Below, piece by piece: positions 19,154-22,796 of a stretch of DNA of 64,000 bases. Location of the stretch: assembly GCF_013391105.1 (NCBI RefSeq), contig NZ_CP058335.1, positions 3,224,001 through 3,288,000 on the forward strand. Reading direction: 5' to 3'. The notes under the pieces were generated by a model that saw only the letters and a list, made by a program, of their open reading frames with translations, was not told the DNA's origin and did no database searches. Position 1 is the stretch's first letter, and each line of letters opens with the position of its first letter. Source of the stretch: Natronomonas salina. GTDB lineage: Archaea; Halobacteriota; Halobacteria; Halobacteriales; Haloarculaceae. Made by a program: the position numbers and the translations under genes.

Positions 19154-19633
19154 TCACGCTCGCGGGTCGCGGTCCGGCCCGGGGTACTCGTCGTCGAACA
19201 GGAGTTCGTAGAAGCCGGCGGGGTCGAAGACGGTCGCGAAGGCGTCCGGCGAGCGAACGCTGACGTCCATCGCGCCCCGGAGGTTCGCCCCGGCCGCCGG
19301 GCTCTGCAGGCGCTCGTCCATCGAGACGACGTGGGCGGCCCCGCCCCGGTAGGCCGCCGCGAGCGCGGGGTGGTCGCCCTCCGGCTGGTCGACCACGACG
19401 GCGACCTCGTCGAACCGCGCTCGCCAGTCGTCCGCCAGGTCGGCCCCGGCAAGGTCCGCGACGACCGCCTCGGCGTCGTCGAGCAGCGGCCCGGTCGCGA
19501 CCAAGTCGAGCCAGGAGTGTCGCCGGACGTGGTCGAGGGCGTCCCGCGCCGCGCCGCCGACCAGCAGGTCCGCGGCGAGGACGTCAGCGTCCGCGACGAT
19601 CCGACCGTGGTCGACCTCGCGGTCGCTATCCAT
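19154..19633 (-). CDS. PIN-like domain protein
   Basis: This 159-residue protein has PIN-fold features: an early Asp motif 'RIVADADVLAADLL', a middle acidic segment 'LLDDAEAVVADL' and a late 'GDHPALAAAYRGGAAHVVSMDERL', in the place where PIN nucleases carry their third and fourth acidic residues. The C-terminal 'RSPDAFATVFDPAGFYELLF' is typical of a haloarchaeal subgroup I cannot name with certainty. Its ATG (19633) overlaps by eight bases the stop of a 30-residue ORF upstream (19626-19718), so the two are translationally coupled. An RNase role is inferred; a VapC-like toxin is possible. Confidence 0.7.
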   Translation of the reverse strand: MDSDREVDHGRIVADADVLAADLLVGGAARDALDHVRRHSWLDLVATGPLLDDAEAVVADLAGADLADDWRARFDEVAVVVDQPEGDHPALAAAYRGGAAHVVSMDERLQSPAAGANLRGAMDVSVRSPDAFATVFDPAGFYELLFDDEYPGPDRDPRA

Positions 19634-19718
19634 CGCGGCGCGCTCCCAGGGCCGCGGTCACGTCCTCGGTCGACACCTCGTACTCGGCCGCCCGCTCGAA
19701 GAGTTCGGCCCACGACAT
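19626..19718 (-). CDS. 30-residue microprotein overlapping the PIN-like gene
   Basis: The reading frame from ATG 19718 to TAG 19626 encodes 30 residues: 'MSWAELFERAAEYEVSTEDV' followed by a short 'TAALGARRDG'. Its last eight bases, ATGGATAG, contain the start codon of the PIN-like gene, a classic coupling overlap. The sequence is amphipathic and helix-prone. It could be an antitoxin-like or regulatory peptide for the PIN partner, but only the gene arrangement supports this. Codon usage matches its neighbours. Confidence 0.55.
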   Translation of the reverse strand: MSWAELFERAAEYEVSTEDVTAALGARRDG

Positions 19719-19758
19719 ACCGGGAGGCAGGCCGCCGACGCACTAAAGCGCGCGGGAG

Positions 19759-20829
19759 TCACCCGCGCAGGTGCCAGTAGGCCGCGCCGGCGACGAAGGC
19801 GACGCCGACGTTCGTCGCCACCGCGAGCCCGCCGATCGCGACGACGAGCCACGGCCGACCCGTCGAGGACAGCGCGACCCGCGCCAGCGAGGCCGCGACG
19901 ACGACAAGCAGCACGCCGAGCAGCGCCACCGGGAACGCCACGAGCAGGCCGGCGGCGAGCGCGAGGCCTGCGTAGAGGCAGCCGGCCAGCAGGTTCGCGG
20001 TCGCCGACCGGGCGCCGAAGGCGTGCTTGCCCGCGAGGCCGCCGGAGCCGTGGCACATCGGCAGCGCCCCCAGCGGCACCGCCGCGAGGTTCATCGCGCC
20101 CATGCTCTCGGCGAGGCGGTCCGGCGAGACGTCGGCGTCGTAGAGGTCAGAGAGCAGCAGCGACGTCGCGACGGCGGCGTTGCCGACCGTCATCGCCAGC
20201 TGGGCCGCCAGCCCCTCGGCGGCGCCGAGCGAGACGGTGGGACCGCCGCTGGAGAAGAGTGCGAGCGCCGGCAGCGTCGGCGTCGGGACGCCCGTGGCGA
20301 CCCCCGCCCACGCCGCGCCGACGGCGAGCACGACGAGCGCGACGGCGCGGCGCGAGACGACGGCGACGGCGGCGGCGAGGCCGACCCCGGCGGCGGCGAC
20401 GCCCGGCGCGGCGACGACGAGGTCGACCGCGGCGACGACCAGCAGGCAGGCGACCGCGAACTGGACGCCGCGGACGACCGGCTCGCCGACCAGGCTGGCA
20501 ATCTCGGAGAGGGCGCCGACGCGGCCGGCGACCAGCAACAGGACGCCCGCGAGCAGTCCCGCCGCGACGAGGTCGCCGTACCCGATCGCGCCGGCGATGG
20601 CCAGGCCGGCCAGGGCCTTCATCGGCTCCACCGACAGCGGCAGGCCGTAGGCGACGCCCCAGACGACCTGGAAGACGGCGAATCCGAGCAGGACGTGCGG
20701 CAGCGACGCTGGCGTCAGTAAACCGAGCGCGACGACCAGCGGGAGCACCGTGATGGAGTCCCCGATCGCGCCGGTCACCTCGCCGGCGTCGAGGGCGAAC
20801 CCGCGGCCGACGGCTTCGACAGTCGCCAT
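19759..20829 (-). CDS. MOT1-like sulfate/molybdate transporter
   Basis: The 356-residue membrane protein has about ten predicted helices. It carries the MOT1 (molybdate transporter of the MFS-like/SulP group) signatures '[19 protein letters not shown]', 'YGLPLSVEPMKALAGLAIAG' and 'ALPMCHGSGGLAGKHAFGAR'. It probably imports molybdate or sulfate. The start is ATG 20829 ('MATVEAVGRGFALDAGEV'); the extension to 20928 is not family-like. A molybdopterin-synthase fusion gene lies 7 kb away, which is compatible with molybdate use but not evidence for it. Confidence 0.8.
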   Translation of the reverse strand: MATVEAVGRGFALDAGEVTGAIGDSITVLPLVVALGLLTPASLPHVLLGFAVFQVVWGVAYGLPLSVEPMKALAGLAIAGAIGYGDLVAAGLLAGVLLLVAGRVGALSEIASLVGEPVVRGVQFAVACLLVVAAVDLVVAAPGVAAAGVGLAAAVAVVSRRAVALVVLAVGAAWAGVATGVPTPTLPALALFSSGGPTVSLGAAEGLAAQLAMTVGNAAVATSLLLSDLYDADVSPDRLAESMGAMNLAAVPLGALPMCHGSGGLAGKHAFGARSATANLLAGCLYAGLALAAGLLVAFPVALLGVLLVVVAASLARVALSSTGRPWLVVAIGGLAVATNVGVAFVAGAAYWHLRG

Positions 20830-21118
20830 ACGCGAGGGTGGAACCCGAGCCGTATGTCGCTTTCCAGCAACCGTCACGGCTTGCGGACGCCGTTCCGGGC
20901 AAACGGATGCGGTTACCAGAGGAGTCACGAACGGGTCGCGTCCGGCGACGAACGGCGGCGCGCGCCGTCGGTCACACGTCCGTCTGACGCGGATTTATGT
21001 GATGGTGGACCCTCTCTATCGGTGGGCGCGCATCGACGGCCTCAAATTTCCCCATCCTCCCCATCGCGCGCCCAGGCTTTTCACGCACGGAGCGGCGGGA
21101 ACGGGCTCCCCCGCCGCG

Positions 21119-21845: not shown

Positions 21846-22445
21846 TCAGGCGTCGGGACCGGCGCGGCCGACGACCCGCGTCTGCTCGTGGTCCGGGAAC
21901 ACCTCGTCGACGACCGACTCGCCCCACCGCTGGCGGATGCGCGCCCTGAGTTCGGTCTCGTAGTCGCCCTTCGGGATCGCCTCGCTGGGCCCCGACTCGA
22001 CGACCAGGTTCTCCTCGACGAGTCGGTCGACCGCGCCGCGGCCGAACCCCGACAGCGGCGCGACGTAGTCGACGCCGTGGCGGTCCTCAAGGCTCTGGGC
22101 GACCGCCCGCGAGACCGTCGGCACCCGGTCGTCCCGGCGAGTGCCGTCGGCGACGACGTCGTAGTCCGCGGCGACGGCCTCCAGGGCCGCCTCGTGGACC
22201 TGCTGGATGCCCGCCCGCGGGAAACCGTCTTCGCGCATCACCTCGACGGCCTCGTCGGCGACGTCGCCGTCGAGTTCGATCGCCTCGAAGGCGAAGCCGA
22301 GGGACTCGGCCGCCTCGCGCGCGTGCTCCCAGTCGTCGGTCACGCCGACGTGGGCGGTGACGAGCGTCACGTCGTAGAACTCCTCGAGCAACAGGGCGGC
22401 CAGCGACGAGTCCTTCCCCCCGCTGAACAGCAGTCCGCACTCCAT
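21846..22445 (-). CDS. PP-loop ATPase, adenylating enzyme of unknown substrate
   Basis: The 199-residue protein starts 'MECGLLFSGGKDSSLAALLL', with the PP-loop SGGKDS at residues 8-13. This is the ATP-pyrophosphatase signature of ThiI, TtcA, ATP-sulfurylase and asparagine-synthase-like enzymes that adenylate tRNA bases or metabolites. 'VVADGTRRDDRVPT' is a further motif common in the tRNA-thiolation branch. No CxxC pair typical of TtcA is seen. The ATG directly follows the pdcd5 stop (TAG-ATG), so the two are cotranscribed. The substrate is unknown; tRNA modification is an inference. Confidence 0.8.
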   Translation of the reverse strand: MECGLLFSGGKDSSLAALLLEEFYDVTLVTAHVGVTDDWEHAREAAESLGFAFEAIELDGDVADEAVEVMREDGFPRAGIQQVHEAALEAVAADYDVVADGTRRDDRVPTVSRAVAQSLEDRHGVDYVAPLSGFGRGAVDRLVEENLVVESGPSEAIPKGDYETELRARIRQRWGESVVDEVFPDHEQTRVVGRAGPDA

Positions 22446-22796
22446 CTATCGGCGCTTGATGTCGAAGCTCTGGGAGTCGGGTTTCATCTCCTGGAGGAGT
22501 TCCTTCATCTTCTCCTCGTCGATCTTCCCCTGCAGCCGGCCACTCTGGGCCAGCGCCACGATCTGCTGTTCGACCTTCTCGCCGAACTCCGGTTTCGACA
22601 TCTGGACGCTGTTGAGCCGCTGGCGGGCCCCGTCCGTGAGCGCCTTCCGCAGCATCGCCTTCTTCTGGGCCTCGGCCTGCTGGCGCTGGGCCTCGGCGGC
22701 CTCCGACTGGCCCTCGCCGCCCTGCTGTTCCTTCAGCTGCTCCATCTTCTTCTGTCGAAGCTCGTCGAGTTCCTCGTCCGTAGGTTCGCCACTCAT
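22446..22796 (-). CDS. PDCD5-family DNA-binding protein
   Basis: This 116-residue archaeal homologue of PDCD5 (TFAR19) has the characteristic '[13 protein letters not shown]' charged helix, a Gln/Ala-rich linker and the three-helix core '[20 protein letters not shown]', with '[20 protein letters not shown]' near the C-terminus. Archaeal members bind DNA, but their cellular role is unclear. In many archaea this gene follows rps19e; here a response regulator on the opposite strand separates the two. The ATG at 22796 is clear. Confidence 0.9.

Follow-up and report, generated by a model that had tools for sequence, protein, structure and literature searches.

The locus lies in a 64,000-nucleotide stretch of the Natronomonas salina genome (contig NZ_CP058335.1, positions 3,224,001 to 3,288,000), which is referred to below as the window. 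It consists of two overlapping genes on the minus strand, and both frames and their 8-nt overlap were found exactly where the first-pass annotation of this DNA had placed them. The features, in window coordinates, are as follows:

19154 to 19633, minus strand: PIN-like gene of Pfam family DUF7384 (PF24109), 159 amino acids, with acidic residues D15, D17, D22, D34, D87 and D106
19626 to 19718, minus strand: microprotein gene, 30 amino acids, predicted helical hairpin, sequence MSWAELFERAAEYEVSTEDVTAALGARRDG
19626 to 19633, minus strand: stop/start overlap of 8 nt, ATGGATAG
19643 to 19647, minus strand: GGGAG, a weak Shine-Dalgarno-like motif within the microprotein gene, located 10-14 nt 5' of the DUF7384 start
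19744 to 19747, minus strand: TTTA, a TATA-like box at -29 to -26 from the microprotein ATG

The larger protein belongs to DUF7384, a Pfam family without a described function. The match (E 2.2e-70, 236 bits against a Pfam gathering cut-off of 27) spans residues 8-158 of the protein and positions 3-153 of the 153 in the profile, and thus the full model. Within its own genome (3.75 Mb, one contig) the protein gave a single match at E<=0.001, and the closest named relative found, at 74% identity, comes from a Natronomonas metagenome-assembled genome (MAG). A full-text literature search with the name DUF7384 returned no paper; supplements lay outside its scope, and the microprotein may stand in small-proteome tables. 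The first-pass annotation had called this partner PIN-like, and fold prediction bore it out. AlphaFold2 returned a confident alpha/beta fold (pLDDT 94.7, pTM 0.89), and comparison of this model with PDB structures by VIA-align gave matches most of which are titled as PIN or VapC entries, the best with a Z of 10.3 and an rmsd of 2.5 over 110 residues. A model of a natural fusion of the two proteins, described below, reached a best Z of 9.2 against PDB structures, with VapC chains among its top structural matches, while Foldseek with the same model found nothing below E 0.001. These fold-match lists leave room for other PIN families, and the PIN-fold matches include the cyclodehydratase RohQ (Z 7.3, 116 residues). 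At the sequence level, 113 rows were scanned, 62 of them containing DUF7384, and 23 of the 113 hit the Pfam family PIN_3 (PF13470), with a best E of 3.3e-5 at a limit of 0.1; this family was absent from the Pfam matches of the window's own larger protein at E<=1, and a search of PDB sequences with the PIN profile produced no hit under E 0.75. The larger protein is accordingly described here as having a predicted PIN fold. DUF7384 also carries a conserved C-terminal tail, YPGPDxDPR.

The microprotein was characterized with a profile of 32 positions built from 64 relatives. In this profile M1 and F7 are invariant and W3, L6, R9 and R28 nearly so, and the motif of the hairpin can be written as W3..L6-F7.R9 ... 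L24..R27-R28. Searched against its own genome, the profile returned the locus at E 5e-15, and no hit elsewhere was better than E 0.07. Seventeen sequences from the same genus were compared in 136 pairs. Over a 26-codon core, pN/pS was 0.60 in the microprotein's own frame versus 1.39 and 1.35 in the two alternative frames; codon position 3 took 47% of the differences in the core. The 78 nt upstream, aligned without gaps, were 37% identical, versus 66% in the 26-codon core. The description of the frame as a small helix-prone protein fits the predicted helical hairpin, and the substitution pattern is of the coding type. Chance, or an artefact of frame calling, was ruled out by the class-wide conservation, the coding pattern and the promoter position, and on this evidence the small frame is a genuine gene.

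Across separate-gene loci the microproteins, 147 distinct sequences from 158 loci, are mostly 30-42 residues long, and they are acidic as well as short, with a median net charge of -6. For the window microprotein, neither Pfam nor NCBIfam gave a match at E<=1, and PADLOC and PHROGs offered no convincing family. Neither it nor its 64 relatives gave a convincing match to a DNA-binding antitoxin domain (RHH, AbrB, Phd or HTH); the weak matches among the relatives were to RHH_4 in one (E 0.012), HTH_15 in two (best 0.079) and DUF5817_CT in three (best 0.0017). Against PDB sequences the hairpin profile found a designed repeat protein at E 0.0019, through repeated weak stretches, and VAPBC49 at 0.32. 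In 3 of the 64 microproteins there is a weak profile likeness to a SinI-type anti-repressor (NCBIfam NF046031; best E 0.003); SinI is, however, a bacterial regulator, and we regard this unreliable match only as a lead. What emerges is a class-wide microprotein family that the searched Pfam and NCBIfam models do not cover and that can now be given a PIN-fold partner.

The distribution of the two proteins was then compared over 391 genomes of the class. DUF7384 was detected in 381 of them at E<=0.001, with 380 over the cut-off. The sole genome below it (G002) has its hit in a 1353-residue frame far from its weak microprotein hit, and this hit is probably due to chance. Eight genomes contain two DUF7384 matches; of three that were inspected, G333 and G388 hold pieces of one disturbed gene, and in G161 the second match is under the cut-off. 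A draw of 196 genomes from across the phylum gave 30 matches, every one of them within the window's order, with none outside it among the genomes listed, a listing that left out 146 non-matching genomes. The microprotein profile matched 370 of the 391 class genomes at E<=0.001. Ten of the 21 genomes without such a match also lack a DUF7384 hit, the membership of the tenth (G382) having been inferred from its best microprotein E of 0.32, and the pair is thus missing from at least 10 of the 391. In the other 11, a hairpin could be read at every DUF7384 locus: six are fused to DUF7384, four are separate, and one (G034) is cut by a contig end. In the set of 182 DUF7384 loci examined, the hairpin motif lies beside or within the DUF7384 gene in 182 of 182 cases, 162 separate and 20 fused, counting as fused one locus (L148) first called split; some genomes are represented twice. 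The first-pass annotation had named a lack of conservation of the small frame next to orthologues of the larger gene as an objection; the frame is conserved there. At one of these loci (L076) only the second helix precedes a contig end. In G388 and G340 the hairpin is present and DUF7384 occurs in fragments only. In L202 (genome G346), one of the four separate cases, about 30 residues are inserted between the microprotein helices, indicating that the hairpin turn tolerates a large loop.

To place the fused forms, a tree was built from 177 DUF7384 sequences, of which 154 are split and 23, all distinct, are fused. This unrooted tree, based on few columns, requires at least 10 changes between the split and fused states on the best topology, at least 4 of them forced by starred branches, and the counts were the same with 152 rows. 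The separate-gene state is the common one and, judging from its presence in most families, probably ancestral; the named Haloarcula loci in the data are of this type. Fused proteins mostly retain the hairpin motif, with W3 replaced by F in 6 of 19. The Pfam model of DUF7384 begins at the PIN domain and omits the hairpin even in a fusion, where it covers residues 50-202 of 203. AlphaFold2 predicted the natural fusion L158 with a pLDDT of 95.3 and a pTM of 0.92; the hairpin blocks scored 96-98 and the linker near 79. The alignment behind this model mixed fused, PIN-only and hairpin-only rows, and docking of the hairpin was read from pTM and pLDDT. On these scores the fusion is modelled as one compact unit, and a floating hairpin would be hard to square with them. 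Since fusion recurred in several lineages, the hairpin appears to work together with the PIN domain.

In all 158 split loci analysed, the inferred DUF7384 start codon lies within the end of the small gene; these starts were deduced rather than mapped. The overlap is 8 nt in 123 loci, 11 nt in 19, 4 nt in 10 and 14 nt in 6. Five of the 163 loci called split were left out: L097, where the PIN frame is disturbed; L148, which is fused; L076 and L094, which are cut by contig ends; and L010 (genome G026), where the hairpin is present and the overlap ATG is out of frame with DUF7384, either as a true exception or through an indel. A split pseudogene or a programmed frameshift was rejected as a general explanation, as the start is kept in the overlap in 158 of 158 loci and across four overlap lengths. 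The overlap suits the translational coupling proposed in the first-pass annotation.

Upstream of the microprotein ATG, at least three of the four positions from -29 to -26 are A or T in 81% of 151 distinct split loci, compared with a mean of 11% and a maximum of 21% at other upstream positions. A pair of A/T at -11/-10 is present in 45% of the 151 loci versus a mean of 11%. The signal is weaker in fused genes (42% of 19, with the -11/-10 pair in 16% versus 8%). Exact TATA tetramers occurred in 18 of 170, the background being 8.9, and the more informative measure is the A/T profile, in which one mismatch is allowed. Such promoter spacing is the layout of leaderless promoters in haloarchaea, and it suggests that the transcript is leaderless and starts at or near the microprotein ATG. 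A Shine-Dalgarno-like motif precedes that ATG in only 2 of 158 loci. Just 5' of the DUF7384 start, a Shine-Dalgarno-like pentamer was found at 72 of 150 distinct junctions; seven control windows lying further 5' contained one in 4-14 of 150. At the locus itself the motif amounts to GGAG only. For comparison, leaderless transcripts make up 72% in Haloferax volcanii, and a Shine-Dalgarno-like motif is used for reinitiation (PMC6728339). A second study, also of H. volcanii, reports 62 gene pairs with -8 overlaps, says that such overlaps reinitiate less well than shorter ones, and finds short distances enriched among subunits of heteromeric complexes (PMC10666635). The -8 and -4 loci fall inside the -8 to +10 range of coupled pairs, and the -11 (19) and -14 (6) loci fall outside the published range. 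The locus resembles the haloarchaeal termination-reinitiation pairs (PMC6728339, PMC10666635) in its -8 overlap class and in the Shine-Dalgarno-like motif within the first gene. It differs from them in that one partner has only 30-35 codons, the overlap is kept across most of the class and repeated fusion occurs as an alternative.

A leaderless first cistron followed by reinitiation is a plausible control device, and the small frame could on that account be a regulatory leader, an upstream open reading frame that sets translation of the PIN gene and whose amino acids are irrelevant. We consider this very improbable. The W, L, F and R positions are conserved across the class, the substitution pattern is of the coding type, and the species in which the genes are fused retain the same peptide as a domain.

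We examined the active site of the PIN domain by counting residue conservation over 177 distinct DUF7384 sequences, to which no motif filter had been applied. D22 and D87 are invariant (177/177), D15 is kept in 170, D34 is acidic in 176 and D106 in 171, so that the lack of conserved acids which the first-pass annotation named as an objection to a PIN-like partner was not observed. On a mapping by secondary structure, we take D15 to be the canonical first PIN acid and D87, D106 and position 53 probably to occupy canonical sites. D17 is kept in 156 sequences and acidic in 158, having thus been lost in 21. Position 53 probably supplies the second acid and has an acidic residue in 146. D15 is absent from 7 of the 177, which requires at least 6 changes on the tree; A, G or S takes its place in L064, L082, L088, L090, L125, L127 and L170, where D22 and D87 are retained. 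Most DUF7384 members keep a PIN-like acidic site, and some lineages may be inactive given the losses of D15 and D17 and the partly acidic position 53.

The same counts bear on whether the PIN domain could be catalytically dead or non-nucleolytic, acting as an RNA-binding scaffold or with another PIN-fold activity, and the hairpin a structural element. This would account for the at least six changes by which D15 was lost and for the partial conservation of the second acid. It would also fit the observation that D22, R30, W41, Y150 and G152, all present in 177 of 177 sequences, are kept better than the canonical acids, and the presence of a cyclodehydratase, RohQ, among the fold matches. Nevertheless, the invariance of D87 and the retention of D15 (170/177) and of an acid at 106 (171/177), all at positions fitting the canonical PIN sites, lead us to regard a non-catalytic PIN domain as unlikely.

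Contact between the two proteins was sought by covariation over 166 hairpin-PIN pairs. The positions that rank together are L24, R27 and R28 of the hairpin and A16, D17, D53 and A56 of the PIN domain, which lie around the DxD motif. R28 is missing from 25 of the 166 pairs, of which 17 lack D17 as well; among the 141 pairs that keep R28, 4 are without D17. Among 58 PIN columns, the association with R28 loss is highest for D17 (phi 0.71), followed by A16 (0.59), the next column being at 0.38. In L044, L047, L058, L084 and L095, among others, DxD has become DPA or DPT and the end of microprotein helix 2 is without L24 and R28. A within-clade shuffle control reached the observed covariation in 0 of 40 trials, and it is not decisive because one clade supplies 56 of the 166 rows. 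A tree-controlled test of R28 and D17 was not significant, having too few supported contrasts. Covariation thus suggests that the end of helix 2 (L24, R28) is near the active-site lip by D15/D17. Since the R28-D17 changes occur mainly in one family and the tree test was not significant, we treat this contact as a lead only; moreover, because the hairpin persists where R28 and D17 have both been lost, a contact between these two residues cannot be essential.

The genomic setting of the pair is stable. Of 20 genomes of the genus, 17 have a DUF7384 match, always in single copy, and the three without one are incomplete, whereas PF01850 PIN genes number 2-14 matches per genome across this set of 20. 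Neighbourhoods spanning about 16 kb were compared for the window and 20 others. Among these 21, a convergent Ham1 gene lies within about 3 kb downstream in 17, and a TsaD-Bud32 fusion and ribosomal protein S24e each follow further downstream in 12; the window's own 16 kb contains Ham1 and neither of the latter two. Searches of plasmids and phages by tblastn, and a pattern-limited search of viral contigs, gave no DUF7384 match. The stable neighbourhood, the single copy in the genus and the absence of a mobile-element match together identify DUF7384 as a stable core gene.

These properties can be set against those of VapBC type II modules, whose architecture the first-pass annotation had seen here. 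The PIN fold, the small upstream partner and the overlapping genes are shared. In VapB, an arginine of the partner approaches the active-site acids, and the covariation lead hints at a possible partner arginine near the acids here too. The partner in the present pair, however, is 30-35 residues long and has no recognizable DNA-binding domain, and the DUF7384 protein ends in the conserved YPGPDxDPR tail. Moreover, unlike VapBC modules, the pair is near-universal in the class, occurs in one copy in the genus within stable surroundings and has been fused in several lineages. The VapBC label consequently fails on two counts, the DNA-binding antitoxin and the variable, mobile occurrence, and that part of the annotation was not supported; an inhibitory role of the hairpin is possible.

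Such a role would make the hairpin an antitoxin-like inhibitor that blocks the PIN site, its R28 end near the acids, and whose release or degradation frees a toxic RNase. It draws on the VapC chains among the best structural matches, on the covariation that puts L24/R28 beside D17/D53, and on the short, acidic character of the split microproteins (median net charge -6); gene order and overlap are also as in many toxin-antitoxin pairs. Its difficulties are that the gene pair is near-universal, present once per genome in the genus, in stable surroundings and without a match in the searched mobile-element collections, and that recurrent fusion takes away independent degradation of the hairpin. 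In addition, no DNA-binding domain was found, and many members of one family have lost R28 and D17 together while retaining the hairpin. We judge an antitoxin-like inhibitor of this kind, which would work like the inhibitory part of VapB without its DNA-binding part, to be unlikely.

The co-occurrence of the two proteins throughout the group, together with their several mergers, suggests instead that the tiny protein functions as part of the larger one rather than as the antidote of a classic toxin. We favour, with modest confidence, a two-gene operon that encodes a PIN-type core protein of haloarchaea, probably a nuclease, together with an obligate microsubunit. According to this scheme, transcription would begin at or near the microprotein ATG. 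The ribosome would make the hairpin first, terminate, and reinitiate at the overlapping DUF7384 start, assisted by the Shine-Dalgarno-like motif in the small gene, so that the two chains would be produced side by side. The hairpin would then dock on the PIN domain and serve there as an indispensable small subunit, the face of helix 1 formed by W3, L6, F7 and R9 being its constant part. The most likely role would be that of a housekeeping RNA endonuclease whose active site is stabilized or shaped by the hairpin. The more specific form of this proposal, in which the protein is a PIN ribonuclease of the haloarchaeal core and the hairpin an obligate subunit, assembled co-translationally and seated at its active site, is tentative and less likely than not.

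If this proposal is true, a housekeeping enzyme has been kept class-wide as two overlapping genes, with repeated gene fusion confirming the partnership. The hairpin would then rank with the smallest enzyme subunits that a genome encodes, and the pair could represent a domesticated or an ancestral form of VapBC logic. Should the PIN protein be an RNase, it would be a core RNA-processing enzyme of haloarchaea, often located near tRNA-modification and ribosomal genes. The split and fused forms in related species provide a natural experiment on why two chains stay separate.

Several other genes surround the pair. Immediately 5' of it in the window is a MOT1-like (PF16983) transporter gene (19759 to 20928, minus strand), and a MOT1-like relative lies within about 2.3 kb upstream in 7 of the 21 neighbourhoods. 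Further upstream (21846 to 22796, minus strand) the genes for a DUF7411 protein with a weak Asn-synthase match and for a PDCD5-type (PF01984) DNA-binding protein are neighbours. On the downstream side, a small DUF5808 protein is conserved in 14 of the 21 neighbourhoods, between the positions of Ham1 and TsaD-Bud32 where both are present; at L229 it is found about 1.05-1.67 kb downstream of DUF7384.
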